Assembly (NCBI GenBank): GCA_001557505.1 | Contig: LSAX01000012.1 | Coordinates: 620,001-684,000, forward strand | Length of the DNA stretch: 64,000 bases | DNA from: Reticulascus tulasneorum | Lineage: Eukaryota; Ascomycota; Sordariomycetes; Glomerellales; Reticulascaceae | Direction: 5' to 3' | Shown: positions 17,187-57,466 of the stretch, piece by piece | Layout: every line of letters begins with the position of its first letter | How positions within the stretch are numbered: position 1 is the stretch's first letter | Program-made: the position numbers and the translations under genes | Notes under the pieces: model-generated | Databases searched by the model: none | Told to the model about the DNA's origin: nothing | What the model saw: the letters and a program-made list of their open reading frames with translations, nothing else

Positions 17187-20100
17187 TCATGTCCAAAGCA
17201 CTGGCATCTCGATGCCGTTTAATTTAGAGAATCTGGCAGCAACGGCTGACAAGCGTGGATCGTCGAAAATGTCCCTGACTGTAAGCGTGAGACCGGCCTT
17301 GCGCGACATGGGGACGACCTGGATAGCGGTGATCGAATCACCGCCCAAGCGGAGGAAGCTGTCGTCCCGACCAATGGATTCGAGGGGAAGGTCCAAGACG
17401 GCCGACCAGATCCGTTGTAGGATCCTCTCTTTGTCGGTCTGCGGATCGCGCTTCTTTCCGTCTACCAGGCTATATCTTTCTAGTTCGTCTCTGCTCAATG
17501 CGGCCGTCATGGTGCGGAGCTTGTTTCTGTCCAGTTTGGTAGAGGTGATGAAAGGCATGCGGCGACAGGGAATGTAGATTGTTGGGATCATGTAACGTGG
17601 GAGGCGCACACTCAGCTGGCTGACCAAAGCGGCGACGATGGTTTCCAAGTCGGGGGTGAGTGGGAGAAAAATGCTTTGGGGTGTGTTACCGAGATCCATC
17701 GATGCAACGGTATCGAGGATGGCGTTGTCGCCTCCGGTATCTCCGCCAATGCAAAAGTACGCAGCGAGGCTTGCTCTACCTTCAGACCGGAACACATCCA
17801 CAGCTACTTGTTGAACTCCTTCCATCGCAACTCGTATGTGGTGCTCGACTTCGCCGAGTTCGACCCGGAGGCCCCGGATCTTCACCTGCATATCCTTGCG
17901 GCTGGAAAACTCAATCGTGCCGTCGGGGTTATAGGAGCACAGGTCACCGGATTTGTAGAACCGACTCCAACAAGGCAAGTGGCGCCGTGGCACCCAGTCG
18001 GGAAGCAAGTCTGTTATGGTCTCGGCGGTCCGCTTCCGGTCTGACAGGTACTCTCGCAGCAGGGTCGGGCCTTGGATGACGACCTCGCCCAGGCATCCCG
18101 TGGGGGCCAGACGACTATGGTCTTGTGGATCGACGATCCAGCAATTGCCACCTACCGGCCGCCCTATTGTCAGAGGCGATTCATCTATCGACTTCCACTC
18201 GTGCAGGGTACTGAAGACGCAAGTCTCTGCGGGACCCCAGCCGTTGACAAGGCGCACCTTGCCAAACCAGGTTTGGAGAATATCTTGACCAACAGCCTCG
18301 CCGGTCAAGAGCAAGAGCCTTAAGCTTGGAACATCCTCTGGTTTCAATGTGCGGACGAAAGCAGGTGTCAAAATGGCTGAGTTAACGCCTGAGTTATGAA
18401 TAAACTGTTGCAGGCTATTCATGCGGACGTGATCGGACGGGACGCAAAGACAGCCACCGGAGATCAGGGTACTGATGGCCTCGCCGATGCAGGCATCGAA
18501 CACGTAAGAAGAAAACTGCAGCATTCGAACGTCGGGCGTCAGACCTAGCTTTTTGGAGATCGCATTCTGGCTAGTGCAGACGGACCCGTGCTCCATGACA
18601 AGACCCTTAGGGACGCCGGTGCTTCCGGACGTGAACAGAACGTAGGCCGCACTGCTTGAGGAGACGGTACATGCTGGCGGGGCGTCGCTGGTCCCGGCTA
18701 CAGCCGACAGCGTCTCGTCGAGGCCACGCGTCACCGTTAAGACACTCGCAACCAGCCCCGCACACATCTCGTGGCTACTAGGAGAGACGAGGGCCAGTTG
18801 GGCACCGGTCTGATGAACGACCTGCTGCTGGCGTTGGATGGGATGCGAGGGATCGAGGGGCACCCACGCGGCACCCGCTTTGTTGATTGCTAATATCGCC
18901 ACAAAGAACCATATCGATTTCTCAAAGCAGACATGCACAAGGTCTTCAGGGAGAATATCGAAGTCTCGGACGAGGTGGTGAGCTAATCTGTTTGCTGCGC
19001 GGTCGAGCTGGCTGTAGGTCATATCGCCATCCCATGATTGGATAGCGGGGGCATTCGGTCGCAACCTCGCTTGCTCTGCGACGAGTTGGTGGACACATCC
19101 GTCGACTATCTCTGGTTCTTCAGCGTTCCAGGAGAGGGCCTTGTCAAGATCCCACGGGCCGGTGCTAGAGATGGAGGCGAGGGGCGTTTCATCTTGCGGG
19201 AGAAGCTGCTGGACAACATGGTCAAAGTGGTTCAACAATGCCACGATCTGGGGCTCGGCAAGCATGTTTACATCGTAGACAGCATCCAGCACGATGGTAT
19301 CGTCATTGACATGACACTGGACGACGAGTGGGTACGTAAAGTAGCCTTTCAAGGCCTCTTCTAGATCAGACTGTCCTAGTTCTGGGGACTCCAGGATCGA
19401 TTCGCCGGCATTATCTGAAGAGCCTAGTTGGGCAGGCTGAATCACCAAGAGACTCGAGAAGTCACATGCATCTCTGGCATCTTCGCTGACCTTGGCAATA
19501 TTCTGTAAACCATACTGCTCAAAAGCGACCATCTCTGACGCTTGTGCTTGAATGGCTTCCAGGAATTCTGACACCGGCTGCTGTCGGTCGAGTCGAACTC
19601 TGACTGGCACTGTGGCAACCAGAAGACCGGCCATACTCTCCACACCGGCGACAGGGGCTTGGCGTCCCGAGATGGATGTCCCAAAGCACACGTCATCCGT
19701 GTTGCAGTACTGGGCAAGCATAATGGCCCACGCAGCACGCAGGATAGACGCCCTTGTGATGGATGAGCTCTTCGGCAAGGGAGCGGCGATAATTTTCTTC
19801 AAGGATCGGGTCGAGACTGCAGCGGCGCGGCTGGGCGACGGAAAGGTGGCGCGCTTTGCCTCTTGGAGTTGTTCCTTCCAATACTGGATCGCAGCGTTGG
19901 GGTCTATCTGCATGGTGTACTTGATGAAACTGGAGAAGGGATGTAAAGCCGGGAGACTGTGTCCATGGTATGTCTGCGATAGTACATCCATGACAATTTT
20001 CATGCTCCAGCCGTCACTAATTGCGTGGTGGACGGTTAAGACAAAATACCACATGCTGTCATGGCTCTTATCGCCAATGCCACCATGGACGAGAGCATAG

Positions 20101-20439
20101 CGGCACAAGCGTGAGCCGTATGTCATGTTGACGTCCCGTGGTGCGCGAAGCGCTGCACGTAGGTCCATGCCGTCAGTAACCTCCCAGGAGACATCGTCTT
20201 TGACAAGTACCTGAAAGGCAATACCGCGGAGGAAAACGATTCTTGTACGCAGACTACCACAAACCTTGACTGTCTGCTCCCAGGCCATTTTGAAGCGGTC
20301 GACATCCACGTTTGCAGCGACATGGTATATATATTTGGCAATGTGAGAGCCAGGTTGCTTGACAGAAAGAGCCATAAACCCGTCCTGGAGCTTCGTGCAA
20401 GGAAATATGTCCTGAATCGGTTGACCGCGCTTCAAACCA
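17187..20439 (-). other. NRPS module 9 (C-A-T), last module, no release domain
   Basis: Boundaries approximate. C motif HHAISDGWS, with KLQDGF where others have KLQEGF. The A domain shares the DACIGE pocket segment with module 7, code DAGILTGVFK. Carrier LRLGGDSI ends the protein, followed only by FSKLNGIEMPVLWT. Confidence 0.85.
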
Positions 20440-23400
20440 CATTCCTGTCGTGCTTGTGATAGCACCATTTTGACATCCTGAGTTGGAAGTAAGCCGAATG
20501 GCTCTGTCACTAATACATCATCGCCTGTCGACCCTTCAGCTGCAGCAGCCATGCGGTCAAGCCGGGAGTCTTTGAATATGGAGGCTACCGTTAGACGGAT
20601 CCCTTGCTGGCGTGCAGCCGCGACAAGATGAATCGCGCTAATCGAGTCGCCTCCAATGCGCAAAAAGCTATCCGTCTTCCCGATCTCTTGAGGTGCGGTC
20701 TTCAACACTTGTGCCCACAAATCTCTCAACGTCAGCTCCATTTCAGTAGATGGGGCTACCCTGATCTGACTTGCTAAGGAGTACATGGCGAGCTGGTTGG
20801 GAGATAGTTCCTTGAGAATAGATTGTAGAGCCGTCCTATCAATCTTCATCGACGTGCTAATCGGCATGTGTCGCAAAGGTAGGTACGTGGCGGGTACCAT
20901 ATAGAGCGGCAGCACATCCTTCAGCTGCTCAGCCAGACTTGCGATGGTGGTCTGGGTGGTTTCATCCAATGCCAGGAGGGGACTTTTGGTGTTGGCCGCT
21001 TGTTCCCCGCGCTGCTCGTCACTAAAACTGATGAACGCGACTAGTGTTGCTCCGGACTCCCGGCGCATTACATCCACTACTGTATGCTTAACGTCAGGTA
21101 TAATCATTTTGATGTTATACTCAATCTCTCCAAGCTCGATGCGCTGGCCACGTAGCTTTATTTGCGTATCCTTTCTTCCAAGATAGTCGATGGTACCATC
21201 GAGATTATATCGGACCAGATCCCCGGTTTTATAGAAGCGTAACCCCACACCAGCCATGGAGAGAGGCAGCCACTTAGGAGCCTGAATAAAGGAGTGGTTT
21301 GTTCTTCCTTTATTGTTCAGGTACCCGCGAGCCAGAGTCGGACCCTGGACAAGAAGTTCACCGAGGCAGCCTATAGGAGCCAACTTGTGGTGATCGTTAC
21401 GGTCCACGATCCAGCAGAGGCTGTTGAAGCCCCGGCCGATTGTGGTCGGAGAGTCGTCTGCAGACTCGTAAATATACGTCGTGCAGCATATACCGGTTTC
21501 TGTGGGACCATATGCATTGATAAGCTTAGCAGACCCCTGCCATGCCTTTAATGTGCCTCTTGTAGGTGCCTCGCCACCAAGCACCAGGATTCTCAAACTA
21601 GGAACTTTCTCCGGGCTGAGAATGGCGGATAGGGACGGCGTTAACATGGCTACATTAACTGATGTTCGTTGGATGTAACCGGTAATGTCCTGCAAGCGAT
21701 CGGCATCAGATGGGATGTAAAGAACCCCCTTAAATACTAATGTTGTGAAGATTTCGAGAAGACTCATATCAAACACATAATTAGCGAACTGTAACACCTT
21801 AGGTGCTTGATCTATGGCATTAGCCTTGCCAAAGGCCAAAATACTCGAAGATATAGCCGCGTGCTCAACAACGATTCCTTTAGGCTTTCCAGTAGAGCCG
21901 GACGTAAACATAACATAGGCGGCATTACTAGGGGAAGGTTTCGAAGATGAAAAGTTAATTGACGTATCGACTGGGAGCTGTGCCACAAGCGCCTGCGACA
22001 GCACGACGACATGCGACGCCATGTGGGCACATGAGCCAGCAGTCGCGGGTGATACCACCATGAGTTTGGCATCAACTTCCGAAACAATTGATTGACGGCG
22101 ACTGACTGGGTGCGATGGGTCGAGAGGTACGAAAACACCACCAGCTTTTAAGACACCTAGCATAGCTACGATTGTCCACATAGATTTCTCGAAACAGAGA
22201 GGCACCATTGTTTCGGGTCGAACGCCAAGCTGAGACAGATAATTAGCAAGGCGTGTAGAGAGCTGGTCGAGCTCCCTATATGTTAAGGTGCCGTCCCAAG
22301 ACAAAACAGCCGGCGCCTCTTCGGCAACTGTAGCTTGTTCTGAGATCAGATCGTGAAGGCAAATATATGTTGCCCTAGGCGGAGTCAAAGAATTCCACAA
22401 CGTTGCCTGTTCTATATCCCATGGCCCTGCAACTGAGACGACACTGAGTGGACTCTCATTTTGCAGAAGAAGCTGCTGGACAACGTGGTCGAAGTGGTTG
22501 AGCAAAGCCACAGTCTGGAATTCGGCCAGCAGGTTCGCATCGTAGACGACCTCCAGCACGACAGTATCGTCGTGCATGTGACCCTGTACAATGAGTGGGT
22601 AGGTAAAATAGCCCTCTAATGCTTCTTCCTGATCGGACTGCCCTAATTCCGGTGGGTCCAAAATCAATTCACCAGCATCGTCGGAAGAGCCTAGTTGGGC
22701 TGGCTGGATCACCAGGAGGCTCGAGAAATCGCAAACCTCTCTGGCATCTTCGCTGACCTTGGAAATATTCTGCAAACCATACTGCTCAAATGCGGCCATC
22801 TCTGACGCTTGTCTTTGAATGGCTTCCAGAAATCCTGACACGGACTGCTGGCGGTCAAGCCGCACTCTCACTGGCACTGTGGCAACCAGGGGACCGGCTA
22901 TGCTTTCCACGCCGGCGACAGGGGCGTGACGTCCTGAGATGGATGTCCCAAAACACACGTCATCATTGTCGCAGTACTGGGCAAGCACAATGGCCCACGC
23001 GGCACGCAGAACAGTTGCTTTTGTGACAGATGAGCTCTTCGATAAGGGAGCGGCGATAGTCTTCTTCAGGGATCGGGAGGAAATCTTAGAGACGCGGCTG
23101 GGCGAAGCAGGGAAGATGGCTCGCTTCGCCTCATGGAGTTGAGTTTTCCAATACTGGCTCGCGGCGTTGAAGTCTATCTGCATGGTGTACTTGATGAAAC
23201 TAGAGTAGGAATGCAAGGCTGGAATGCTGCGTCCATGGTAGGCTCGCGATAGTACATCCATAACGATATTCATGCTCCAGCCGTCGTAGATGGCGTGGTG
23301 GGCGGTCAGGACAAAGTAGCGTTCGTTGTCATGGCTGATGTCGCTATAGTCGCTGTGGATGAGAGCATAGCGGCACAGGCGCGAGCCGTATGTCATATTG

Positions 23401-26400
23401 ACGTTCTGTGATGTGCGAAGCGCTGCACGAAGGTCGATGCCGTCAGTCACCTCCCAGGCAACATCGTCTTTGACCAGTACCTGAAGGGCAGTGCCGTGAA
23501 GAAAAACGATCCTTGTTCGCAGATTGCCGCAGGCCTCAACCGTCTGCTCCCAGGCCGTTTTAAAGCGATCCATATCAATATTCTCGGCGAGACGGTACAC
23601 AAACTTGGCCATGTAAGAGCCAGGCTGCTTCGCCGAAAGAGCCATAAGCCCTTCTTGAAGCTTGGTGCAAGGGAATGCATCATCGATTACCTGTGTATTT
23701 CCTAGGGTGCACTGGCCTCGGACGCTAATGTCATAGCTGGCATTATTATCAAGCTTGTGAAGCTTGGTAGAAGGGCCTTGCGCTTCAGCTTTGATGAGAC
23801 TACATAGAGGTTCATCGAGAAGACTAAAATGGGGAACTTGTTCAAGACACCGTTGCATGTCAGTAACGTCAATGTCGGATACACAAGCTGCGACGGATGA
23901 CAAGCGCGGATCGTCGAAAATGTCCTTAACTGTAAGAATGAGACCAGCCTCCCGCATCATAGGGACGACCTGGATAGCAGTGATCGAATCACCGCCTAAG
24001 CGGAGGAAGCTGTCATCTCGGCCGATGGATTCGAGGGGAAGCTTGAGGACGGCCGACCAGATCCGCTGCAGGGTCTTCTCTGTGTCGGTCTGCGGATCGC
24101 GCTTCTTTCCGTCTACCAGGCTATATCTTGCCAGTTCGTCTCTGGCAAGCGCAGCCGTCATGGTGCGGAGCTTGTTTCTGTCAAGCTTGGTGGAAGTAAT
24201 AAAAGGCATGTGGCGGCAGGGAATGTAGATTGTTGGGATCATGTATCGAGGGAGGCGTACAGTCAGCTGGCCAACCAAAGCGGACACGATGGTTTCCAAG
24301 TCGAGGGTGAGTGGAAGGAAAATGCTTTGAGATGTGTTACCTGGACCCATCGTTACAACGGTATCGGGCTTGGCGTTGTCGGCTCGAGTGTCTCCGCCAA
24401 GGCAGAAGTACGCAACAAGGCTTGCTCCAGCGTCAGATCGGAACACGTCCACGGCTACCTGTTGAAGACCTTCCATCGCAACTCGTACGTGGTGCTCTAC
24501 CTCGCTAAGCTCAACCCGGAGGCCACGGATCTTGACCTGGGTGTCCTTGCGACTTGAGAATTCGATCGTGCCGTCGGGGTTGTAAAAGCACAGGTCTCCT
24601 GACCTGTAGAACCGATTCCAATGGTGTATGTGTCGCTGTGGTGCCCATTCGGGGAGCGAGTCTGCCATGCTCTCGGCGGTCCGCTTACGGTCTGATAGGT
24701 ACTCTCGCAGCAGGGTTGGGCCTTGGATAACGACCTCACCCAGGCATCCCGTGGGGGCCAGACGACTATGATCTTGCGGATCGACGATCCAGCAATGGCC
24801 GCCTACCGGCCGTCCTATTGTCAGAGGAGATTCATCTATCGAATTCCATTCGTGAAGGGTACTGAAGACGCAAGTCTCTGCAGGACCCCAGCCGCTGACG
24901 AGGCGCACCTTGCCAAACCAGGTTTGGAGAATATCCCGACCAACAGCCTCACCGGCTAACATCAGTAGTTTCAAACTAGGAACGTCGGCCGGCTTCAGTG
25001 TGCGGACAAAGGCAGGAGTCAAAAGGGCCGAGTTGACACCCATGTTGTGAATAAACTGCTGCAAGCTGTTCATACGGATTTGTTCGGATGGAACACAGAG
25101 ACAGCCGCCTGAAATCAAGGTACTAATGGTTTCGCCGATGCAGGCATCGAACACGTAAGAAGAAAACTGCAGCATTCGGACTTCAGCCGTCATGCCTAGC
25201 CTCTTGGAGATCGCTTTCTGGCTAGTGCAGACGGAACCATGCTCCATAACAAGGCCTTTAGGTACGCCGGTGCTTCCGGACGTGAACAGGACGTACGCCG
25301 CATTGCTTGAGGACACCGTACATGCTGGTGGGGCGTCGCTGGTGTCCGCTACAGCCGACAGCGTCTCGTCGAGGCCACGCGTCACCGTTAAGACACTCGC
25401 AACCAGCCCCGTACACATCTCCTGGTTACCGGGGGATACGAGGACAAGTTGGGCACCGGTCTGATGAACGACCTGCTGCTGGCGTTGGATGGGATGCGAG
25501 GGGTCGAGGGGCACCCACGCGGCGCCAGCTTTGTTGATTGCCAAAATCGCTACAAAGAACCATACCGACTTTTCAAAGCAGACATGCACAAGGTCTTCAG
25601 GGAGAATATCGAAGTCTCGGATGAGGTGGTGAGCCAATCTGTTTGATGCGCGATCGAGCTGGCTGTAGGTCATATCACCATCCCACGATTGAATTGCGGG
25701 GGCGTTGCGCCGCAGCTGCGCTTGGTCTGCGACGAGCTGGTGGACACAGCTGTCTACTATCTCTGGGTCTTCGGCGTTCCACGAGAGAGCATTATCGAGG
25801 TCCCACGGACCGGCACTAGACACGCAGGCGAGGGGCGTCTCATCTTGCGGGAGAAGCTGTTGCATGACGTGATCAAAGTGGTTTAGCAACGCCACAACTC
25901 GGGCCTCAGCTAGCACTTTTGCGTCGTAGACCACATCCAGTTCGACAGTATGATCATACATGTGGCACTGGAAGACAAGCGGGTAGTTGAAATAGCCCTC
26001 TAGAGTGTGATCTGATGTTTCTTGGTCAATAGCAGCCGGCCGGAGGATTGAGCTGGTGGGGCCGTCTGATGCCATCAAGTGCTTTGCTGGCTGAATCACC
26101 AGGAGGCTCGAGAAATCGCATACCTCTCTTGCATCTTCGCTCACCTTAGCAATATTTTGTAGACCATGTTGCTCAAAAGTGACCATCTCCGATGCTTGAG
26201 TTTGAATGATGTCTAGAAATTTTGACACAGACTGCTGGCGGTCAATTCGAACTCTGACAGGCACTGTGGCAACCAGAAGACCGGCCATGCTCTCGATGCC
26301 GGCGACCGGGGCATGCCGTCCCGAGATTGAAGTTCCGAAACACACATCGTCTGTATCACAGTACTGGGCAAGCACGATTGCCCAAGTGGCTCGCAGGATA

Positions 26401-29400
26401 GACGCCCTTGTGATGGAGGAACTCTTCGGCAAGGAAGTGCGGATGGTCTTTTTCAAGGATCTAGTCAAAACCGCAGAGCCACGGCTGGGCGAAGCGGGGA
26501 AGATGGCACGTTTCGCCTCGTGCAGTTGTTTCTTCCAATATTGGTTTGCGACGTCGGAGTCGAGCAGCATGGTGTACTTGACAAAACTGGCGTAAGGACG
26601 CAAGGCCGGGATACTCAGTCCACGGTAAGACTGTGACAACAAGTCTGTAATGAGACGTATAGTAAGGCCATCAACAACTGCGTGATGAATAACCCAGACA
26701 AAATAACGCCCCTTTTTGTCAAGATTAGAATTGTGGACAATGGCGTAGCGGCAGAGGCGCGAGCCGTACGTCATGTCGATGTCCCGGGACGCATCGAGTG
26801 TTGCACGAAGGTCCATGTGGTCTGTTTCTTCCCATAAGATATCATCTTCTATGAGCACCTGTAGTGTAGAGCCGCGGTGGAAAACGATCCTTGTACGAAG
26901 ACTGCCGCAAAGCTCAACCGTCCGCTCCCAGGCCTTTTTGAAGCGATCTAGATCAACGCTTTCAGCGAGACGGTATACAAATTTAGCCATGTAAGAGCCT
27001 GGCTGTTTGACCGAAAGAGCCATGAAACCCTCTTGAAGCTTAGTGCAAGGGAACACGTCCTCGATCACCTGTTTACCTCCCAGGTTGCACTGCTCTCGGA
27101 CGTTAAAGTCATTGGTCGCGGACTCATCAAGCTTGTCCAGGCTGTTGAGAGGACTTTGAGCTTGGGCTCGGATATGATCACGTAGAGGTTCATCGATAAG
27201 GCTGAACTGTGGGATTTTCTCGAGACCTCGCTGCACGTCGGTGACGTCAATGTCGGATACACAATCTGCGACAGCTGACAAGCGTGGGTCGTCGAAAATG
27301 TCCTTGACTGTGAGTGCAAGACCGGCCTCGCGCGACATAGAGATGACTTGAATAGCGGTAATAGAATCACCGCCTAAGCGGAGGAAGCTGTCATCCCGGC
27401 CGATGGATTCGAGGGGAAGCTTGAGGATGGTCGACCAAATCTGTTGAAGGGTCTTCTCTTTGTCGGTCTGTGGATCACGCTTCTTTCCGTCTACCAGGCT
27501 ATATCTGGCTAGGTCGTCTCTGCTCAGTGCGGACGTCATGGTGCGAAGCTTGTTTCTGTCTAGTTTGGTAGAGGTGATAAAAGGCATGCGGCGGCAGGGA
27601 ATGTAAAGAGTAGGGATCATGTAACGAGGCAGGCGAACACTCAGCTGGCCGACCAACGCAGAAACTATGGCTTTCAAGTCGGTGGTGAGCGGGAGGAATA
27701 GACTTTGAGGAGCGTTACGGAGTTCAAGAGAAGTGGTGGCCTCAGAGTCGGTGTTGGAGACAGGTACGTCATAATCAGTGCAGAAGTACGCAACAAGACT
27801 GGCTCCGCTGTCAGAGTGAAATACGTCCACGGCTACTTGCTGAACACCTTCCATCGCAACCCGTATGTGGTGCTCTACCTCGCTAAGCTCAACCCGGAGG
27901 CCACGGATCTTGACCTGGGTGTCCTTGCGACTTGAAAATTCGATCGTGCCGTCGGGGTTATAGAAGCACAGGTCACCTGACTTATAAAACCGATTCCAAC
28001 GCGGCAAGTAACGCCGTGGCGCCCAGTCAGGGAGCGAGTCTGTTATGGTCTCAGCGGTCCGCTTACGGTCCGACAGGTACTCTCGCAGCAGGGTCGGGCC
28101 TTGAATAACGACCTCTCCCAGGCATCCAGTAGGGGCCAGACGACTATGGTCCTGTGGATCGACGATCCAGCAATGGCCGCCTACCGGTCGACCTATTGTC
28201 AGAGGCGACTCACTGATCGACTTCCACTCGTGCAGGGTACTGAAGACGCAAGTCTCTGCGGGACCCCAGCCATTGACGAGACGCACTTTGCCAAACCAGG
28301 TCTGGAGGATGTCTTGTCCCACCGCCTCGCCTGCCAAAAGCAAGAGCCTTAGGCTGGGGACGTCCTCTGGTCTCAGTGTGCGGACGAAGGCTGGAGTCAG
28401 GAATGCCCAGTCTACCCGCATCTCGCTAATGAATTCTTTCAGACCGTTTATACGGGATTCCTCCGAAGGGACACAAATGCAGGCACCGGAAATAAGGGGA
28501 GCGATGATTTCGCCGATAGAAAGGTCGAACACGTAAGCAGCAAATTGCAGCATTCGGACATCAGGTGTCAGGCCTAGCCTTTTGGAGATTGCTTGCTGGC
28601 TAGTGCAAATAGAACCATGCTCCATGACAAGACCCTTAGGGACGCCAGTAGTTCCCGACGTGAAAAGAACGTAAGAGGCGTTGTGAGAGGAGACCTCACA
28701 TGCTGGTGGGGCGTCGCTAGTCTGAGCTATCATCAACAAGCCCTCGTCAAGATCAGATGTCACCGATAACACACGCGCAACGAGCCTAGTACACATCTGG
28801 TGGTTGCCGGGAGAAACGAGGACAAGTTGGGCACCGGTCTGATGAACGACCTGCTGCTGGCGTTGGATGGGATGCGAGGGGTCGAGGGGCACCCACGCGG
28901 CGCCAGCTTTGTTGATTGCCAGAATCGCTACAAAGAACCATACCGACTTTTCAAAGCAGACATGCACAAGGTCTTCAGGGAGAATATCGAAGTCTCGGAC
29001 GAGGTGGTGAGCCAATCTGTTTGATGCGCGGTCGAGCTGCCTGTAGGTCATATCGCCATCCCATGATTGGATGGCGGGGGCATTGGGCCGTATCCGCGCT
29101 TGGTTTGCGATGAGTTGGTGGACACAGCTATCGATTATCTTCGGTTCTTCGGCGTTCCAAGAGAGGGCCTTGTCGAGATCCCACGGGCCGCTACAAGATA
29201 TGGAGGCGAGCGGGACCTCATCTTGCAAGAGTAGCTGCTGCACGACATGATCGAAATGGTTGACCAATGCCGTGACCTGGACCTCAGCCAGCTCATTGGT
29301 GTCATAGACCACGTCCAACAAAACGGTATCATCCTGCATGTGGGCCTGAAATACGAGTGGATAGTTGAAGTAGCCCTCTATAGTTTGGTCTACTAAGTCT

Positions 29401-32400
29401 TGGTCAATGTGAGCAAGCCGGAGGATTGAGCCGGTAGTGTCGTCTGAAGCCATCAAGTGTTTTGCCGGCTGGACCACCAGAAGGCTGGAGAAATTACACA
29501 CATCTTTAGCATCTTCGCTTACTTTGGCAATGTTCTGCAGACCAAACTGCTCATATGCGACCATCTCTGACGCTTGAGTTTGAATGGTGTCTAGAAATCG
29601 TGACACAGGCTGCTGGCGGTCAAGCCGAACTCTGACTGGCACCGTGGCAACCAGAAGACCGGCCATGCTCTCGATGCCGGCGACCAGGGCGTGACGTCCC
29701 GAGATTGACGTCCCGAAGCACACGTCGTCTGTGTCACAGTACTGGGCAAGCACGATGGCCCACGCCGCTCGCAGGATAGAGGCCTTTGTGACAGAAAAAT
29801 TAATTGGCAAGGGAGCGTCGATGGCCTTTTTCAAGAATCGAGTCGCGTGCTTGGAGCCGTGGTTGAGCGGAGCGGGGAAGATTGCTCGTTTCGCTTCATG
29901 AAGCTGTTCCTTCCAATACTGGCTGGCGGCATTGGAGTCGAGCATCATGGTGTATTTGATGAAACTGGTGTAGGGACGCAAGGCTGGGATAGTCGGTCCC
30001 TGGTAGGCCTGCGACAACAATTCAGTAATGAGACGTATAGTAAGACCGTCAACAACTGCGTGATGAATAACCCAGACAAAATACCACCCGTTCCTATCTT
30101 GATGTTCGTCATGTACGATAGCGTAGCGGCAGAGGCGTGAGCCGTACGTCATGTCAACGTTCTGTGACGTATGGAGCGCTGTGCGAAGGTCCATACCGTC
30201 TGTTACTTCCCATAAGATATCATCTTCTATGAGCACCTGTAGTGTAGAGCCGCGGTGGAAAATGATCCTTGTACGAAGACTGCCGCAAAGCTCAACTGTC
30301 CGCTCCCAGGCCTTTTTAAAGCGATCTATATCAATACTTTCAGGGAGACGGTATACAAACTTAGCCATGTAAGAGCCTGGCTGTTTGATCGAAAGAGCCA
30401 TAAACCCTTCTTGAAGCTTAGTGCAGGGAAATACGTCTTCGATCACCTGTTTGTTTCCTAGATTACACTGCTCTCGGGGACTAACCTCATAATGCGTGTT
30501 CCTATTGTGCTTGTTTGGCTTGTTAGAAGGACCTTGAGCTTCAGCTTGGATGATATCACGTAAAGGTTCATCGAGAAGACTGAAAGGTGGGACATGCTCA
30601 AGATACCGCTGCATGTCGGTGGCGTCAATTTTGGACACACTAGCAGCGACGGCTGACAAACGCGGATCGTTGAATATGTCCTTGACTGTGAGAGAGAGAC
30701 CAGCTTCGCGGGACATAGGGATGAGTTGGATAGCAGTGATCGAATCGCCGCCTAAGCGGAGGAAGCTGTCATCCCGGCCGATGGATTCGAGGGGAAGCTT
30801 GAGGACGGCCGACCAGATCCTCTGCAAGGTCCTCTCTGTACTGGTCTGCGGATCGCGCTTCTTTCTGTCGACCAGGCTATATCTTGCCAGGTCGTCCTGT
30901 CCAAGTGCGGCTGTCATGGTACGGAGCTTGTTTCTGTCCAGTTTGGTAGAGGTAATAGAAGGCATGTTGCGACAGGGAATGTAAATTGTTGGGATCATGT
31001 ATCGAGGGAGGCGCACACTCAGCTGGCCAACCAAAGCGGCTACCTTAGTTTCCAAGTCGGGGGTGAGTGGGAGGAAAATTCCATGGGATCCGTTACCTGG
31101 ATGCATCGCCACAACGGTATCGGGGTTGGCGTTGTCGGCTCGAGTGTCTCCGCCAAGGCAGAAGTACGCAACAAGGCTCGCTCCAGCGTCAGACCGCAAT
31201 ACGTCCACAGCTACTTGTTGAACACCCTCCATCGCAACCCGTACGTGGTGCTCGACTTCGCCGAGTTCGACGCGGAGGCCACGAATCTTGACCTGGGTGT
31301 CCTTGCGACTTGAAAATTCGATCGTGCCGTCGGGGTTGTAGAAGCACATGTCACCTGACTTGTAGAACCGATTCCAATGGGGTATATGTCGCCGCGGTGC
31401 CCATTCGGGGAGCGAGTCTGTTATGGTCTCAGCGGTCCGCTTACGGTCCGACAGGTACTCTCGCAGCAGGGTCGGGCCTTGGATAACGACCTCTCCCAGG
31501 CATCCCGTAGGTGCCAGACGACTATGATCCTGCGGATCCACGATCCAGCAATGGCCGCCTACCGGCCGCCCTATTGTCAGAGGCGACTCACTGATCGACT
31601 TCCACTCGTGCAGGGTACTGAAGACGCAAGTCTCTGCGGGACCCCAGCCATTGACGAGACGTACTTTGCCAAACCAGGTCTGGAGGATGTCTTGTCCTAC
31701 CGCCTCGCCTGCCAAAAGTAGGAGCCTTAGGCTAGGGACGTCCTCTGGTTTCAGTGTGCGGACGAAGGCTGGAGTCAGGAATGCCCAGTCTACCCGCATC
31801 TCGCTAATGAATTCTTTCAGACCGTTTATACGGGATTCCTCCGAAGGGACGCAAATGCAGGCACCAGAGATGAGGGGAGCGATGATTTCGCCGATAGAGA
31901 GGTCAAACACATAAGAAGCAAACTGCAGGATTCGGACGTCAGGCGTCAGGCCTAGCCTTTTGGAGATTGCTTGCTGGCTAGTGCAGACGGCACTATGCTC
32001 CATTACAAGACCTTTGGGGACGCCAGTGGTTCCAGACGTGAAAAGAACGTAAGCGGCGTTGCGAGAAGAGACCCCACACGCCGGAGGACTCTTGCTAGTC
32101 TCGGTCGCTGCCGATAGTGTCTCGTCGAGATCACGCGTCACCGCTAGGACACGCGCAACCAATCCTATACATAGTTCGTAATTATTAGGAGAGAGAAGAG
32201 CGAGCCTTGCACCAGTCTGATGAACGACCTGCTGCTGGCGTTGGAGGGGATATGAGGGATCGAGAGGCACCCACGCGGCGCCAGCTTTGTTGATGGCCAA
32301 AATCGCCACAAAAAACCATATCGACTTTTCAAAGCAGACATGCACAAGGTCTTCAGGCTGAACATCGAAATCTCGGACGAGGTGGTGAGCCAATCTGTTT

Positions 32401-44400: not shown

Positions 44401-47400
44401 GGCATCACATCTTTCAGCTGCTCAGCCAGACTTGCAAAAGTGGCCTGAGTAGTTTCATCCATTGCCATGAGGCGGTCGAGAGGACTTTCAGTTGCGACAA
44501 CGCGTTCTCCGCGCTTCTGGTCACTAAAGCTGATGAACGCGGCCAGTGTTGCGCCGGACTCACGGTGTGCTACATCCGCCACCACGTGTTCAACGCCAGG
44601 CAGAAACATCTTGATGTTATACTCGATCTCTCCAAGCTCGATTCGCTGGCCGCGCAGCTTGATTTGCGTATCCTTTCTTCCAAGGTACTCGATGATGCCG
44701 TTTAAGTTGTATCGGACTAGATCTCCAGTTTTATAGAAGCGTAACCCAGTACCAGCCATCTGGAGAGGCAACCATTTGGGGGTACGGATAAAAGATTTAT
44801 TTGTTCTCGCTTCGTCGTTGAGGTACCCGCGGGCCAATGTTGGACCTTGGACTAGAAGTTCACCTACACAGCCGACAGGGGCTAGCGTGTGGTGGTCGTT
44901 CCGGTCCACGATCCAGCAAAGGCTGTTGAAGCCCCGGCCGATAGTGGTTGGAGACTCGTCGGACGACTTGTACGTATGCGTCGTGCAGTAGATACAGGTC
45001 TCGGTAGGTCCATATCCATTGATAAGCTTAACTCGTCCATGCCATAACTTCAACGTTTCTTTCGTTGGTGCTTCGCCGACGAGAATTATCGTTTTAAGGC
45101 TTGTTACCTTATCTCGCTCTAGAATAGAAGAGAAGTATGATGTTAACATCGCTGTGTTAATTGCCGATTGTTGAATATAACTAGATAAATTCTCCAATCG
45201 GTCGACATCAGATGGGATATATATGGTGCCACCATATACGAGGGTTGCAAAAATCTCCGATAGACTAATGTCAAACGCGTAGCTAGAGAATTGTAATACT
45301 CGAGACGTTTGGTCTATAGAACAAGCTTTGCCGTGGTCTACAACACTCGAAGAGAAAGCTGAGTGTTGAATAACGATTCCTTTAGGCGTTCCCGTAGAGC
45401 CAGAGGTAAACATAACGTATGCTGTATTACTAGGAGATGGCTTGGAGGATGAAGGGTCGATTGACGTCTCGGCTGGGAGCTGTTCCACGAGCGCTTGGGA
45501 AAGTACCACGACGTGTGATGATATTTGCCCACACGATTCAGCAGTAGCAGGTGATGCTACAATAAGTTGGGCGTCAACTTGGGAGATAATCGTTTGACGG
45601 CGACTGACTGGGTGTGATGGGTCGATAGGCACGAACACACCGCCTGCTTTCAGGACACCAAGCATAGCAATGATTGTCCACATGGATTTCTCGAAACAAA
45701 TAGGCACCATCGTCTCAGATCGAACCCCAAGCCCAGACAGATAATTGGCGAGGCGTGTAGAGAGCTGGTCGAGTTCCGAATACGTGATTGTGCCGTCCCA
45801 AGAAGAAATGGCCAGGGCTTGGTCGGCTATTTTAGCCCGTTCTGAGATCAGTTTGTGGACGCAAGCATACGTTGCGCCAGGTAGAGTCAGAGAGTTCCAC
45901 GAAGTTATCTGTTCTAAATCCCATGGCCCAGCAACAGAGACAGTACTAAGTGGAGTCTCATCTTGCAAGAGTAGCTGTTGGACGACGTGATCCAAGTGGT
46001 TCAGCAAGGCCACAGCCTGGAATTCAACAAGCCGGTTGGCGTCGTAGACGACCTCAAGTACGACAGAATTGTCATGCATGTGCCCTTGGATGACTAGTGG
46101 ATATGTAAAATACCCATCCAGGGACTCTTCGTGACCAGACTGTCCTACTTCTGGATTTTCCAAGATCGCTTCCTCCGCCCCGCCAGACGAGCCCAGTTGG
46201 ACTGGCTGAATTACCAGGAGACTCGAAAAATCACACACCTCTCTGGCGTCTTCGCTCACTTTGGCAATGTTCTGTAGACCATATTGCTCAAAAGCGACCA
46301 TCTCTGACGCTTGTGCTTGAATGGCTTCCAGATATCCTGACACAGATTGCTGGCGGTCAAGTCGAACTCTGACTGGTACTGTGGCAACCAAAGGACCAAC
46401 CATGCGCTCCACACCAGCGACCGGAGCTTGGCGGCCTGAGATGGATGTCCCAAAGCACACATCATCTGTGTCGCAGTACTGAGCCAGGACGATGGCCCAA
46501 GCGGCTCGAAGGATAGACGCCCTTGTGATAGAGGAGCTCTTCGGCAAGGAAGCGCTGGTGGTCTTTTTCAAGGATCGGGTTACAACCTCGGAGTCGCTGG
46601 TAGGTGTAGGTGGGAACATGGCGCGCTTCGCCTCATGCAGTTGTTCCTTCCAATATTGGCTCGCGGCGTCGGGGTCAAGATGCATGATGTACTTGATGAA
46701 ACTGGTGTAGGGATACAAGGCTGGTATATCGCGTCCATGGTAGGCATTCAATAGTATATCCATAACGATATCCATGCTCCAGCCATCGTATATGGAATGG
46801 TGGGTAGTCAAGATGAAGTACCGCTCATTGTCGTGACTCTTGTCGCTATGGTTGACATGGACGAGAGCATAGCGGCAGAGTCGTGAGCCGTAAGTCATAT
46901 GGACTGCCTGTGATGCGCGCAGTGCTGCATGCGGGTCCATGCCGTCGGTCACGTCCCACGCAAGATCCTCTTTGATTATTACTTGAGAGGCAGTATTACC
47001 TAGGAAAACGATCCTCGTCCGCAGACTACAGCAGACCTTGACTGTCTGCTCCCAAGCCCCTTTGAAGCGATCGACATCGACATTTGCAGCGAGACGGTAG
47101 ACAAACCTTGCAATGTGAGAGCCTGGCTGCTTGACCGAGAGAGCCATGAACCCTTCTTGGAGCTTCGTACAGGGAAATGCATCCTCAATAATATCTGTAC
47201 TTGCTATTTCATGTTGATTCTGAAGCCGTCGGTCCAGGTTTGCGTCAAAATCGATTCCGTTCTCTGCCGAATAGACCAAATTTCCTTTTCTGCTCTCTAG
47301 CAAGCCACGTAGCGATTCACTCAGGAGGCTGAATGGTGTTTCTTTGGCTTGACTAGTACGCCAATGACCATCAAGATCATCCAGTTCGCATGCTTTAGCA

Positions 47401-49493: not shown

Positions 49494-52400
49494 TCAACAT
49501 AGCCACTGGACTTCAAAAACATCCTTGTCTTCTTTGAAAATCGAGCTGTATAAATGGTCCCCAATCAGTTGTACCAAGGAGTCCCGCGTGTTTTGGATGT
49601 TGGGCAAAAGGAGCCCTTGCGTTTGTATCGATGTGAATTGTCTTGACTCTTCATCTCTGGGGATGTCTTCTTCAGTCGCGGCTGATGGGTGTTTGTTGGG
49701 AGATAGTGCCATCCGCCAGTCCTTTGTCTGGGGCTCTCTTTCTTCATTGCCAGAAGCAACGTCATACCTCCTAGAGTAGTTTGGCATGTCTGTGAGCACC
49801 GTTCCCCCTATTGTCACTACATTCATGTCGAAAGCCACATGTTCCTGGTACAGCCGACCAAGGGTCTTCAACATTGATTTCCTTCCACCCTCATTACGAA
49901 CGAGCGTTGGTACGTATAGGGCCGAGTCCTGTACGCCGAGTGATTGAAATATATCCCGCAGCGGAGCCGATAATGTAGCATTAGCGCCAATCTCGAGGAA
50001 CAATTTGCGGTCGCCAGTACGTTTCAGCATTAACTGTATAGCTGGAGAGAAAAGCACAGGGGATTCTAGGTTGCTTCTCCAGTAGGATGGCCCTAGTTCA
50101 GTTCCTTCTCTCGCTTCTTTGGCCGTTACGGTAGAGAAGAATGGAATCAACGACTTTTTCTCAAAGCTCAAACTTTGCAAGAAGTTTTCGTATGAGTCGC
50201 CGATGTCTCGCATGTGGTTTGAATGATAGGCAATTTCTCCATTGAGCCGACGGACCAAGCATTCTGGGTGACTCGCTTTCACGCGGTCCAAGATTGCTTC
50301 TAGCCGGTCATTGTCTCCTGATAAGGTGACATTGTTTGGGCTGTTCTCGCATGCAATGGAAACGCCATCTTCGAGGAACATGGACACAGCATCGCAACTC
50401 AGGCCCACTACAGCCATCCCTCCACGCCGCCTTGTTTGTTTGGCAACCTGTCCGTAGTAGTATGCTATGGAGATGGCTGTTTCGAGTGACAGTGATCCCG
50501 ACGCATAGGCAGCTGAGATTTCACCACTGGAATGGCCAACAACAGCAGCCGGGTGTATGTTCCAAGTTCTCAGCAAATTGACGAGCCCAATTTGCACTGC
50601 AACACATATTGGCAGAGACAGTTCGGGTCGGTTTAAAGTGGTTTCGCCCCGTGGCCGCATTAATTCTTCTTTTTAAGTCCGTCAGCTTGGTTATATATAT
50701 CACAATTCACCCCGACTAACCTTGCATTGTCCAAGCTGGTGCGTTGGCCAGTTTTCCCAGAGCTATATCCATCGCTCTGATATCAGATTGGAATGAAGGG
50801 AAGCTGTTAAAGAGGTCACATGCGATCCCTAGCCATTGTGATCCTTGACCAGTGAATACAAAATACACAACTCCGGGTATGTCATGCCTTTCGACAGGCG
50901 ACATTTGCAATGGGCTCAGTCCGTTAGTGATAGCGAATGCTCGATATAACAAGTGTTCCCTGCGAACACCAAGAGTAAACGAGACATCGCACAAGCCATC
51001 TTGGTGCTTTTGGGTGTAGTCTTCTATGTCGGAAGCCATCTTTCGCAAAGATGTCGGGTTATTGGCCGAAATCACGAGGAGGTGATGGCGAGCTTCCTGA
51101 GCCACCGACGTTTCTCTGACTAGAGACTTTGGAGATTCAGTTACCGCCTAATAGAGGTTAGATCATCTTCAGTGCAGTAGTTCAAGTGCGAGTTACATTG
51201 GTATTGTCGCTTTGAATCCTGGTATTATTGTTCAAAACAGAATAAACCTGATTGGTTAGCCCTGATCCTTGTTTGATGCTCTTGTTGGATTGAAGTGTGT
51301 TGTGCTCGTAGACCAGAAGTGCCTTGATCAAACTTGAGATTCCCGAGGTCCATTCCGAGTCAGTATTATTTCGCTTGACCTGTGCCTGTAAGACACCGAA
51401 TAATGGGATGGAAAGATTTCGGCATACTCACAGATCCAATGGAGACTTTCTCACTCTCAAACATCTCCTTCATGTTTTTCACATCGACCGAATCATCATC
51501 ATATCCATTGACAATACCATTGTACTCGGTCAAGATGCCATTTTTAGCAGCTGGAATGTTAGCATGGTGATGAACCTTCCCTATCAGCGCCTCCTGATGC
51601 TCCGAGCAAGGGCTTATTATACCATGCGTTTCCCCGTCCAAATTTGCAGCGCTTGCTTGAATAATACCACGAATTGGATCTTCGTCTTTCAGCGCATAAC
51701 TAAATCTTTTGATATAAATGGCGCTGATGCCCTCGCCGCAGAAGTAGTCATCCGCCCCTGAAAATCTACTCAAACTACTCGGCGACTCAACAGGTTGCAT
51801 GCCAGGTGCAGCTACCAGTGATTGAGGCACAAGCAGATTCGTCCCAACGACCACAGCCGAGTCGCACACTCCAGAATTTATAGCCTCAAAAGCCTCATAA
51901 ACCCCAAAGAGCGATAGTGAACCCGCAGTGTTGAAAGTGATGCTGTTGGTATCGCCATCAGCCTTGCACATTTAACGGGGCTGTCCATACAAACCTTGGG
52001 CCGTTCAGATTGTACTGGTGTGAAATGATCTCTGCTAGATTGGTACTCTTTCGACTAGTGACCCGCTGCAGATCTTCTGCAGGGAGGTTATGGTGATCAT
52101 CACCAGAAACTTCAACATAACAACCTATGTTGGCGCCTCGCCAATCTGTCTGACCGCCATTCTCCATGCACTCTCGAATAACTTCGAGCAACAGTACCTC
52201 ATAAGGATCGTTTTTTTCTTCTTCCGCCTCGCTTGCCAAATCGGATGATTCTTTCATGTTGTCAAGCTTGCTCTCCAGGTAATTATCATGCCCACTGTTT
52301 TCTGCTATCTCGCGCTTGCGATTACTAGGATAGTTCCAGCGGAAGTTGTATCGATTCTCAGGGGTTTGACACTGAGCCGAGTCATTTTTGACCAGGTGTT

Positions 52401-52650
52401 CCCACATTGAATCTGTGGTGTTGATGTTGCCTTGCAATCTAAGTCCGATTCCCACAATGGCAATGGGCTCGGTATTCTTTTCAGACCCTGGGTGTGACTG
52501 TTCTTCGGCGGCATTGTAATTATCTTCATCAGGTCCAAGTTTTGAATGCCGTGTTGGCGCCATTGTTGGTCGGGCCTGTTGTGCAACGTAACTCGTGATA
52601 GCGGTAGTGAACGTGCGACGAAGCTCAAAGTCGATTTCAGTTAATGACAT
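49494..52650 (-). CDS. KS-AT protein with catalytically dead ketosynthase (983 aa, five exons)
   Basis: Exons 51995-52650, 51432-51942, 51197-51379, 50721-51147 and 49494-50668 join in phase through GT-AG introns of 52, 52, 49 and 52 nt. The KS domain starts at EPIAIVGIG (residue 61). Its active-site Cys is Gly226 (TAGSLS for TACSSS), the first His is Asn360 (EYNG for EAHG) and the second His is Asp396 (VKRNNTD for VKxNIGH). DPQQR is also altered to DPYEV. The AT domain is conserved: VFTGQGSQW, catalytic GHSSGE (Ser639) and AYHSNHM. After LTDMPNYS comes a linker, then SLVQLIGDHLYSSIFKEDKD, which resembles the first helix of a carrier domain, and the protein stops there. No DH, KR, ER or complete carrier follows. 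Peptaibol synthetases begin with KS-AT-carrier, so this is probably a detached starter unit loading NRPS carrier T1. A decaying relic is the alternative, though splice sites and frame are intact. Confidence 0.9.
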
Positions 52651-53303
52651 GTGAATTTATCCAAGTCAAAAGTTTATGATACAGATGTTGCTTGTTGGAT
52701 ATATTCCATGCACAGAACCCCATAAATTCATTTCAACGTTGTTGACTAAGTGTCTATATTCATCACGTCAGAGACTGAGTAATTGTCGACATGATGTAAG
52801 CAAATCGGATGAGGCTTGTGTGCTTCTCCTCTGGCGCTGAGCGTAACATAATTCCTGGGCATCCAACATTGCACTGAAGCTCGGATTTTATAACGTCACG
52901 AAACTATTGAAAGACCTTGTATAGTTAGCTATTGGTACGGGATTGTCGATTTATTGAAATTAGTGTCTTGGAACTAGTATGCATTGGATTTTCTTACATT
53001 AAACACAGCCTCGTCAGCACTGAAGCGGAACGGAGTAGGCCTGCAACGCGGGGAGCCAGTGCCCCAGATTATGTATTTATCCGCCTGGCCCAACTTTTGG
53101 ACACCACAAAAGTCTTTTGATCCTGATACGAAGTCGGAGACGGCAGAACCTCTACCATGAATGCTGTGATACATTGAATTGGCGTTCATTTTGTCTCCGG
53201 AAACAAACAAATATATTATTACGCACCTCTACGTATTCCACAGAGACGCTTGTCAATACCGAGCTTACCTGCCTTTTTTTTCAGCTGTCTGCGCAGGATT
53301 CCA
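52651..53303. promoter_or_regulatory. Divergent promoter, KS-AT / HAD hydrolase
   Basis: The KS-AT start (52650, minus) and the HAD start (53304, plus) face apart across 653 bp, which suggests co-regulation. A pyrimidine tract ending in CAG (53272-53284) before the HAD start could be the acceptor of a 5' leader intron. No coding evidence otherwise. Confidence 0.45.
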
Positions 53304-54074
53304 ATGTCTCCTCTGAAGCACTTTTCGTTGTTGTCATTTGATTGCTATGGGACTTTAGTGGACTGGGAGGGTGGTATCATTCTCGCTCTGCATCCGTTGA
53401 TCAGCCGTCTCAATGACTCAAGTCCTTACAAAACCAACAACACGATTTTGTTGCAACGTTATTCCCATTACGAAGGTCAAACTCAAGCAAAACACCCAGC
53501 CATGAAGTATTCGTCTGTTCTTGAAGCGGTATACAAGGAGATGGCAAGCGAGTTCGGGTTGAGTGACACAATCACAGCAGAGGAAGTGTCAGCCTTCGGC
53601 AACAGTATCGGCAACTGGAAAGCTTTCCCAGACACTGTTAAGGCCTTACAGGACCTGAAGCATCACTACAAACTTGTAATACTTTCAAACGTGGATAGAG
53701 AATCGTTCAGCCGAACGCTTAATGGGCCCCTCGCCGGCATTTCGTTCGATGCCGTGTACGTTGCGGAAGACATCAAGACATATAAACCAGATTTACGAAA
53801 TTTCGAATATCTCGTTACTCGTTGCGAAAAGGAATTAGGAGTGCATCGGAAGAAGATACTTCATACAGCCTATGCGCTTAACCATGACTTGGTCCCGGCA
53901 ACGACATGCGGACTTGCAACGTGCTGGATTAAGAGAGAACCTAATTCCATGGGAGGAGAACTCTCTAGGGTGCAACACCAAGTCGACCTGACGGCCCAGT
54001 TTCCCACGTTGAGAGACATGGCTGATGCTGTGGACGGGGAGTTCTTTGATCAGGACCATAAGTTGGAAACGTGA
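53304..54074 (+). CDS. HAD-type hydrolase (haloacid dehalogenase-like), candidate TqaF-like aziridine opener
   Basis: A 256-aa single-exon protein starting MSPLKHFSLLSF; an in-frame ATG 18 codons upstream (53250) is possible, but the later start fits the family. Motif I is FDCYGTLVDWE with the nucleophilic Asp, motif II is VILSNVDRES, motif III Lys lies in TYKPDLRNF, and NHDLVPATTCGLATCWI fills the last conserved block. This is the 2-haloacid-dehalogenase-like branch. In the tryptoquialanine pathway the HAD enzyme TqaF opens an aziridine intermediate on the route from valine to Aib. The same role is inferred here because the NRPS carries Aib-like modules and a TqaM-family protein lies 2.3 kb away. 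Generic dehalogenase or phosphatase activity remains possible. Confidence 0.9.
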   Translation: MSPLKHFSLLSFDCYGTLVDWEGGIILALHPLISRLNDSSPYKTNNTILLQRYSHYEGQTQAKHPAMKYSSVLEAVYKEMASEFGLSDTITAEEVSAFGNSIGNWKAFPDTVKALQDLKHHYKLVILSNVDRESFSRTLNGPLAGISFDAVYVAEDIKTYKPDLRNFEYLVTRCEKELGVHRKKILHTAYALNHDLVPATTCGLATCWIKREPNSMGGELSRVQHQVDLTAQFPTLRDMADAVDGEFFDQDHKLET

Positions 54075-56359: not shown

Positions 56360-57466
56360 TTAAAAGGTAGAACGGCAATCCACTTTCATATTTTCAACCC
56401 CAATCCTAATAACATCGCCGGCCATTTCGATCTCGTACTGGATGTCCGGCTGTGCCTCCGCGTACAGCCAATTCTTTTCACCCGCCATGGCAAAATTGAA
56501 TTGTGCCAACGCATCTGGAATGATATGCTTCTTCAGCGAAGGATTACCCGCGCATGCAGCTTCTACTCGCAGCTGAATCTCGCAGCTACGATCCAGTAGC
56601 CCAAATAGAAACGACGCCTCATCCGCAGTGGAACCGACTGTAAGGAGTCCGTGGTTCAACAAAAGCGCAGCTTTACCCTTACTTCCCAGCGCGCGTGCGA
56701 TACGCTGGCCTTCCTCTTCGGCAGTCACAATGCCAGCATACTCGTTCATGACGGCGATTGAGCCGTATAAGTCGCAAACATCTTGCGTAATCATATCCAA
56801 CGGCTTACCAAATACAGTCCAGGCACGGCCGGCGATCGTATGCGCATGGCAGATTGAGTGAATATCGTGACGAGCTTTGTGGATCTCCGAATGGATATAG
56901 TAACCAGGGGAATTCACTGGACGAGACTACAAAAGGACATGTGAGACAAGCTTTGGGCCATGACTACTCCTGTCTGGAATTGGAGCTAAGGCAACTTACA
57001 GTGTTACCACCAACGAACTTTCCGCTACCAATCTCAAGGCACAGCATGTCACTGGCGTTCAGAAGTGCGAAGTGTTTCCCTATCGGATTCATCCAGATAA
57101 AATCGGGATGTTCCGGATCCCGAACGCTAATGTGACCCGATATTCCTTCAGTGAAGCCGACACGTGCCCAGTTACGCAATACTGCTGCCATGTGCACGAG
57201 GATATGCTCCCGATGCGCTTGGAAAGAGTCGAAATGCGGAATGCCTGACATGAGCTCGCACTTGTCAGCAACGACACCATATCTATACAAAGACAATGCA
57301 ACCAAATTCCCGACGGATTCGCACCTGTAAGTGGATTTTGACCGTGGCTAAGTTTTGATAAGTGGCATTCTGTAGTCTCATTCACTAGCAATGAGAGTTT
57401 AGTCTCTGGGACTGTGGCCAGTGCTTCCTGAGCATCAGGTTTCACGGTCATGGTTGAGGACATCAT
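56360..57466 (-). CDS. Class II aldolase/adducin-fold protein, candidate TqaM-like Aib enzyme
   Basis: Exons 57325-57466, 57000-57244 and 56360-56926 join in phase (introns of 80 and 73 nt) into 317 aa, starting at [10 protein letters not shown]. Conserved blocks: [63 protein letters not shown], the metal-binding CHAH ([11 protein letters not shown]), and [11 protein letters not shown] carrying the third metal His. The fold is shared by sugar-phosphate aldolases and by the NovR/CloR-like non-heme iron oxygenases. TqaM of the tryptoquialanine pathway belongs to the latter and performs the last oxidative decarboxylation giving Aib. With the HAD neighbour and Aib-like NRPS codes, the TqaM role is the best inference. 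Class II aldolase-like proteins are common in fungi, so it needs confirmation. Confidence 0.9.

Follow-up and report, generated by a model that had tools for sequence, protein, structure and literature searches.

A probable Aib-dependent lipopeptaibiotic locus with paired synthetases in Reticulascus tulasneorum

The described systems closest to the locus reported here are the leucinostatin cluster of Purpureocillium lilacinum and the TqaL-TqaF-TqaM enzymes that provide 2-aminoisobutyrate (Aib). According to its published account, the leucinostatin non-ribosomal peptide synthetase (NRPS) LcsA is organized as PCP-(C-A-PCP)×10-NAD, in which a first carrier domain (PCP, here also T) precedes modules of condensation (C), adenylation (A), and carrier domains, with Aib at A4, A7, and A8 (PMC4946873). 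TqaF is described as a haloacid dehalogenase (HAD)-type aziridine hydrolase that opens pleurocybellaziridine, and TqaM as the enzyme that oxidizes the product to Aib (PMC11880133); in an emerimicin producer, moreover, Aib has been linked to TqaM and TqaL (PMC11610996). Here, we describe a 64-kb stretch of the Reticulascus tulasneorum genome (contig LSAX01000012.1, hereafter C4; C4:620,001-684,000), which we call the window; coordinates without prefix are positions within it. We propose, with a probability of roughly 0.7, that it belongs to an Aib-dependent lipopeptaibiotic locus, in which a supply arm and an assembly arm are joined with paired synthetases. This locus probably builds two short Aib-rich peptides and carries part of the Aib-making route; it extends known antibiotic-peptide pathways and is not a new kind of system.

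The synthetase within the window is an NRPS of 10,246 aa, encoded by one uninterrupted open reading frame (ORF; 17187..47927, minus strand), with the layout T0-(C-A-T)×9, and ends on a T domain. By motif scan, it comprises 10 T, 9 C, and 9 A domains, HHxxxDG being present in 9/9 C domains, and Pfam annotation of its first 3,342 aa returned three A (AMP-binding), three C (condensation), and three T (PP-binding) domains. An earlier note, made from the letters of this stretch, had read a nine-module NRPS with four identical A-domain codes (DLGFLAGVFK); both features are borne out, the code being found in modules 2, 4, 5, and 6 (4/9). Over its first 190 aa, the protein resembles the end of an A domain followed by a carrier, with 29-49% identity to its own modules. 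This segment contains an A-domain relic (A8-A10 part) and a divergent carrier, T0 (47358..47927, minus strand; PF00550, 46.1 bits), which is 32-41% identical to the other T domains of the protein; no A core was seen upstream of the relic. The window NRPS displays the PCP-(C-A-PCP)n layout of LcsA, and the likeness extends to Aib residues, which we predict here, and to bZIP genes in the cluster; LcsA differs in its ten modules, their order, and its terminal NAD domain, which is absent here (PMC4946873). A starter-type C1 is unsupported, as judged by identity alone: C1 is 63-76% identical to the other eight C domains, about as close as those eight are to each other (64-78%).

A second synthetase begins ~8.8 kb beyond the window end, on the strand opposite to that of the window NRPS (C4:692.8-726.8 kb); its open frame, 11,406 codons long, includes ten A domains. 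We searched the genome (42.84 Mb, 35 contigs) with A5 of the window NRPS and scored 96 of the 157 candidates; among these, 13 matches reach at least 81% identity, A5 included, with six in the window NRPS and seven in the second synthetase, and the next best match stands at 46%. The A matches of the second synthetase extend from C4:694,879 to 726,255. Read 5′ to 3′, percent identity to A5 runs 45, 90, 44, 89, 100, 89, 83, 44, 84 in the window NRPS and 45, 84, 81, 45, 89, 89, 86, 81, 46, 81 in the second synthetase, so that the order of A-domain types is common to both, with one extra module among modules 2-3 of the second. The T0 fragment, in turn, matches the second frame at 692,824-693,468 (residues 1-215, 69% identity); ten further T matches follow, the last of which (726,628-726,840) already contains a stop. 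Thus, each synthetase has an orphan carrier at its start and, it seems, another at its end. With matches to T0, to ten A domains, and to ten more T domains, the second synthetase conforms to the LcsA-type arrangement; beyond these A and T matches, the layout that we ascribe to it is putative. The nine-module line that the earlier note had interpreted as a short nine-residue Aib pathway does not stand alone: the window NRPS, with its nine A domains, is paired with a synthetase that has ten. Two large peptaibiotic NRPSs per cluster have been described in Tolypocladium (16+10, 13+8, and 11+5 modules), but here the succession of A-domain types is identical in both synthetases apart from one insertion; TqaF and TqaM are not named in the Tolypocladium accounts compared (PMC4517408, PMC6367777). 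The coniotin cluster con of Coniochaeta resembles the present locus in its three consecutive Aib residues, its several NRPS genes, and its acylated N-terminus; its three NRPSs, however, form one 21-residue peptide, whereas each synthetase here has its own start carrier (PMC11774467).

The A domains of the window NRPS, all on the minus strand, are of two types. The 'GVFK' domains A2 (41283..42596), A4 (34593..35906), A5 (31200..32513), and A6 (27822..29135), all with DLGFLAGVFK and putatively Aib-type, together with A7 (24444..25757, DAGLMAGVFK) and A9 (17793..19106, DAGILTGVFK), belong to one type and are 80-89% identical over their whole length; A7 and A9 combine this Aib-type A-domain type with a different pocket. 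A1 (44571..45866, DISMIVGIYK), A3 (37878..39173, DMFVIGAMCK), and A8 (21069..22364, DMLMVGAICK) form the second type, with 71-75% identity among themselves and 41-44% between types. Codes were taken by motif anchors, not by structure superposition, and their final K was entered as a constant. Since the 'GVFK' A domains are module duplicates, the identical DLGFLAGVFK codes do not represent four independent events, and we rejected that reading; the codes follow module duplication.

Between the two synthetases lie genes for a ketosynthase-acyltransferase (KS-AT) protein, a HAD hydrolase, a TqaM-like enzyme, and a bZIP protein, the introns of which were placed by reading frame and GT-AG borders, without transcripts. 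The TqaM-like gene (56360..57466, minus strand; exons 57466-57325, 57244-57000, and 56926-56360, with two introns) encodes a class II aldolase-fold protein of 317 aa, with PF00596 over cut-off. Compared with the Protein Data Bank (PDB), it matches TqaM (9m09) with 509.5 bits, 9m0a with 509.1, 9n43 with 486.5, 4xxf with 178.3, and NovR with 168.7; BLASTP identity is 78.7% to 9m09 over 272 aa and 73.2% to 9n43 over 280. In an eight-row tree of the window protein, 9m09, 9n43, NovR, 4xxf, and three paralogs from this genome (L002 and L003 as partial rows), in which the PDB rows are aligned stretches and just one of five inner branches has strong support, the protein groups with 9m09 and 9n43 at 100/99. 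Ten family matches in the genome contain five other class II aldolase genes: L001-L003 are 35-51% identical to TqaM over stretches of at least 60 aa, L007 and L008, two views of one multi-exon gene, show 45-56% identity in pieces 16-69 aa long, and for L005 no match to TqaM was obtained at 1e-5. Judged by its sequence, the protein is a TqaM-clade enzyme, as the earlier note had expected from its fold family, and the tree places it with TqaM, away from the other class II aldolase-fold proteins. The sugar-aldolase reading was rejected on the TqaM match and the tree grouping; fuculose-phosphate aldolase models score 37-45 bits.

The TqaF candidate is a HAD-type hydrolase of 256 aa (53304..54074, plus strand), with PF00702/PF13419 over cut-off. 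Its best PDB match is the L-azetidine-2-carboxylate hydrolase 3smv (184.8 bits, 44% identity), with the near-identical partner 8yvw at 182.5 bits, followed by 8hp5-8hp7, named (S)-2-haloacid dehalogenase (164-167 bits); all else scores at most 40.3 bits. The classical L-2-haloacid dehalogenases reach 34-36 bits, which makes that reading of the protein unlikely, notwithstanding the name given to 8hp5-8hp7. Among NCBIfam models, TIGR01428 (haloacid dehalogenase type II) scores highest, with 117.2 bits, under the cut-off of 125.4. The protein keeps FDCYGTLVDW, ILSNVD, and TYKPD, and with them the nucleophile and lysine motifs of the strained-ring hydrolase subfamily. Assignment to the TqaF family, as previously suggested, is upheld insofar as the protein is far nearer to an azetidine-ring hydrolase than to classical dehalogenases, but this comparison does not tell TqaF from AzhA.

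In having genes for a HAD hydrolase and a TqaM-clade enzyme close to an NRPS, the locus recalls the TqaL-TqaF-TqaM systems (PMC11880133, PMC12192607). Such a neighborhood of supply genes and NRPS is already described for Penicillium, where TqaF lies in the Tqa cluster (PMC11880133). In the described TqaLFM-ti system, by contrast, the efrapeptin cluster includes tqaL, and tqaFM are on a different contig, separated from it by at least 854 kb; in Trichoderma, ~100 ORFs lie between tqaLF and tqaM (PMC12192607). Here, the HAD and TqaM-like genes stand between two peptaibiotic-type synthetases, and TqaL was not found. We found no description in the open-licence papers compared of such a HAD-TqaM pair between two synthetases with TqaL not found beside them, and the main text of the leucinostatin paper contains neither the word aldolase nor the word dehalogenase (PMC4946873).

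The KS-AT gene (49494..52650, minus strand) encodes 985 aa in an open frame of five exons (52650-51995, 51942-51432, 51385-51197, 51147-50721, and 50668-49494) separated by GT-AG introns. PF00109 and PF00698 are over cut-off, and PF02801 is under it. The catalytic motifs of the KS are lost: NTAG, EYNG, and VKRNNTD stand at the three positions where we take the Cys, His, and His motifs of a KS to lie. The AT motif GHSSGE is kept. The expected KS-AT starter beside the NRPS is hence present as a gene, its KS being without catalytic motifs. None of the 31 AT matches in the genome provides a second AT near these synthetases, and the others on C4 are confined to 359 and 475 kb. In Tex1, KS-AT-ACP forms the beginning of the protein, and this starter was inferred to acylate the first Aib (PMC11610996); a KS deletion has been reported in Trichoderma synthetases (PMC9961477). 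In view of these precedents, the changed KS motifs, and the kept AT motif, it is plausible that the protein acts as an AT only, in trans. The locus resembles the Tex1/Tex2 systems of Trichoderma in having KS, AT, and carrier as starter and a very large NRPS, but it differs in that KS and AT, the KS devoid of catalytic motifs, form a protein of their own, while the carrier T0 resides on the NRPS, and in the lack of a C-terminal reductase (PMC11610996, PMC9961477).

Following TqaLFM biochemistry, a TqaL-like oxygenase encoded elsewhere would convert L-valine (or isoleucine) into an aziridine, which the HAD hydrolase would open to 3-amino-2-hydroxy-3-methylbutanoate; the TqaM-clade enzyme would, by analogy, turn this compound into Aib (or isovaline, Iva) by oxidative decarboxylation. 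An acyl group would be loaded on T0 in trans by the AT of the KS-AT protein, with the KS non-catalytic, or would come from another acyl source, and C1 would hand it from T0 to residue 1. The nine modules of the window NRPS would then assemble X-Aib-X-Aib-Aib-Aib-Y-X-Y, its ten-A-domain paralog would make a second peptide on the same plan with one more residue, and both peptides would be released by an enzyme not fused to the synthetases. More tentatively, and at somewhat less than even odds, the locus may supply itself, the divergent nine- and ten-module synthetases sharing the KS-AT protein and the HAD/TqaM pair and, with release in trans, giving acyl-Aib peptides one residue apart; with the same reserve, such a pair would originate from separate genes and not from module skipping. 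If the proposed pathway is true, a single locus would unite the supply and use of the Aib precursor and display two naturally occurring 'module insertion' variants. It would then give direct access to Aib A-domain codes, the prediction of which is still poor, to the first-step enzyme, which must lie elsewhere, and to product release by synthetases without a release domain.

Several findings weigh against an Aib-dependent lipopeptaibiotic locus; they concern the substrate, the supply, and the release. As for the substrate, DLGFLAGVFK, its stem DLGFLAG, and two near variants were not found in the main texts of the open-licence papers searched, and neither were the stems of three other codes of the window NRPS; with no published code found for comparison, we infer that the DLGFLAGVFK modules use Aib. 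In addition, core motif A3 reads FTSGSTS in A4, with Gly changed to Ser, as opposed to FTSG[ST]TG in the other eight A domains, which makes the activity of A4 less sure. Instead of Aib, the four identical modules might activate a proteinogenic residue, small or branched, such as Ala, Val, or Leu, with the TqaM-like gene serving Iva or another pathway. Beyond the unmatched code, this alternative draws on reports that clade 1 of the peptaibol A domains contains Iva, Leu, Ile, Ala, Gly, Val, and Ser domains alongside those for Aib (PMC4517408) and that signature comparison is limited for peptaibol synthetases (PMC12192607). We nevertheless consider it rather unlikely, given that the TqaM-clade gene lies between the sole two synthetases that match this A-domain type among the 96 candidates scored of 157.

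As for the supply, no TqaL was found in the window and none was identified in the genome. Matches to 2-oxoglutarate (2OG)-type oxygenase families, TauD and PhyH families included, number 17 for PF03171, 45 for PF02668, and 5 for PF05721, none of them on C4; comparison of the PF03171 loci L009, L024, and L020 singly with the PDB, and of six such loci as a profile (60 of 87 matches listed), returned no entry named TqaL, the structure of which may carry a different name or fall in another 2OG subfamily. Of the single locus for synthetase and Aib precursor supply envisaged in the earlier note, the TqaM-clade and HAD genes beside the NRPS are in place, with TqaL, the first step, not found. Moreover, within its 100/99 group, the TqaM-like protein pairs with 9n43 (84/84) and not with 9m09. 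The HAD hydrolase, for its part, may be AzhA-like instead of a TqaF: a second HAD on contig C17, 40% identical to it, is 42% identical to 3smv, close to the 44% of the window HAD (a HAD on contig C1 reaches 27%). Aib supply could therefore be encoded elsewhere, the window HAD being an AzhA-type detoxification hydrolase that lies by chance beside the TqaM-like gene and the true TqaF being the C17 copy or another gene. The azetidine-2-carboxylate hydrolase as nearest solved relative and the near-equal distances of the two HADs from it fit this alternative, as does the account of Aspergillus nidulans AzhA, a HAD azetidine-2-carboxylate hydrolase that occurs in many fungi (PMC8016842). We regard it as unlikely, however, because a TqaM-clade gene and two Aib-type synthetases are linked to this gene, and 653 bp separate its start codon from the start codon of the divergently oriented KS-AT gene. 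Apart from these questions, L024 (C12:1596694-1596984) is a divergent 2OG oxygenase with a weak PF03171 match (E 1.6e-5), the last 168 aa of which are without a close solved relative. L018 (C5:17536), L019 (C12:4072889), and L023 (C5:12102) are near-identical 2OG oxygenase copies and recent duplicates, L018 and L023 showing apparent frame changes relative to L019.

As for the release, the window NRPS stops ~50 aa past its last GGDS motif, and no thioesterase (TE), reductase (R), or terminal C domain was seen in it or, by eye, in the downstream DNA. Genome-wide, the PF07993 reductase has 24 matches, on C4 only at 825,703 and 1,158,759-1,159,560, and the PF00975 thioesterase has 5, on C4 only at 371,978; none lies beside the synthetases. 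Because the window NRPS is without a C-terminal NAD(P)H reductase domain of the Tex type, no peptaibol alcohol end is predicted. Likewise, PF07993, PF00975, and AT searches revealed, beside the synthetases, no terminal NAD domain, thioesterase, or reducing polyketide synthase (PKS) of the LcsA type; the window, where no search was aimed at an acyl-CoA ligase, showed no counterpart of the two PKSs, the acyl-CoA ligase, and the thioesterase of the LcsA cluster (PMC4946873). That the KS motifs are lost, the N-terminal A domain is cut down to its last part, an R or TE domain is absent from the NRPS frame, and core motif A3 is altered in module 4 could bespeak a decaying, pseudogenised cluster, but this is quite improbable, as the frames of 10,246 aa, 11,406 codons, and the five-exon KS-AT are all open, the second synthetase has the same truncated start, 69% identical, LcsA likewise starts with a PCP (PMC4946873), and HHxxxDG is kept in 9/9 C domains.

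The Aib-dependent locus that we favor also includes a likely regulator, the bZIP transcription factor gene (58925..60333, minus strand; first intron 60206-60146, 3′ exon structure provisional). Once a 61-bp intron, picked by eye, is spliced out, the gene reads DDWSDVKDPKEKKRIQNRIAQRTYRQRLRARLEKLQET, and its Pfam matches are just under cut-off (bZIP_1, 25.2 vs 27.6 bits; bZIP_2, 22.0 vs 22.3). bZIP genes have been described in the leucinostatin cluster (PMC4946873) and beside TqaL in Trichoderma (PMC12192607).

In Pfam scans, the other ORFs in the window flanks (HET, NB-ARC/TPR, NACHT-like, short-chain dehydrogenase, 2EXR, and Zn-cluster/Fungal_trans_2) have no evident role. At one end, a gene for an NB-ARC protein with ~32 nearly identical TPR units (window 1-5202, minus strand) adjoins a HET gene (window 5218-6006, minus strand) and is followed by the start of a NACHT-type gene (window 6431-7291, plus strand; NPHP3_N over cut-off, NACHT under), together a block of the self-recognition type that flanks the cluster. 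Zn-cluster and Fungal_trans_2 exons (window 6667-9333, minus strand; Zn_clus under cut-off) possibly belong to one transcription factor, and a short-chain dehydrogenase exon lies at window 10416-10844 (plus strand; adh_short over cut-off). Between the HAD and TqaM-like genes, VHIGIQGNEAADSL is read at window 55120-55200 (minus strand), which we take to be a motif of the RNase H of non-LTR retrotransposons; this segment is probably a relic of a long interspersed nuclear element (LINE).

Contig C4 comprises 1,396,675 bases and has CCCTAA telomere repeats at its start. Among the 75 of 145 candidates that were scored, at least seven more giant NRPS frames, with 24,626, 22,758, 17,604, 14,902, 13,783, 13,015, and 7,600 codons, lie upstream of the window at C4 ~17-563 kb, together with one NRPS frame of 3,565 codons. 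Three of the giant frames (L030-L049) contain several A-nMT-T modules and have a C domain last, with a methyltransferase Pfam match on one 10-kb piece, an arrangement like that of cyclosporin synthetase. PKS AT matches at C4:359,214-360,217 and C4:474,540-475,542 lie 5-10 kb from the 14,902- and 22,758-codon frames and perhaps serve a polyketide amino acid, as in cyclosporin. The 24,626-codon frame has 18 carrier matches and, barring an assembly error, exceeds the 'up to 21,000 amino acids' given for peptaibiotic NRPSs (PMC4517408).

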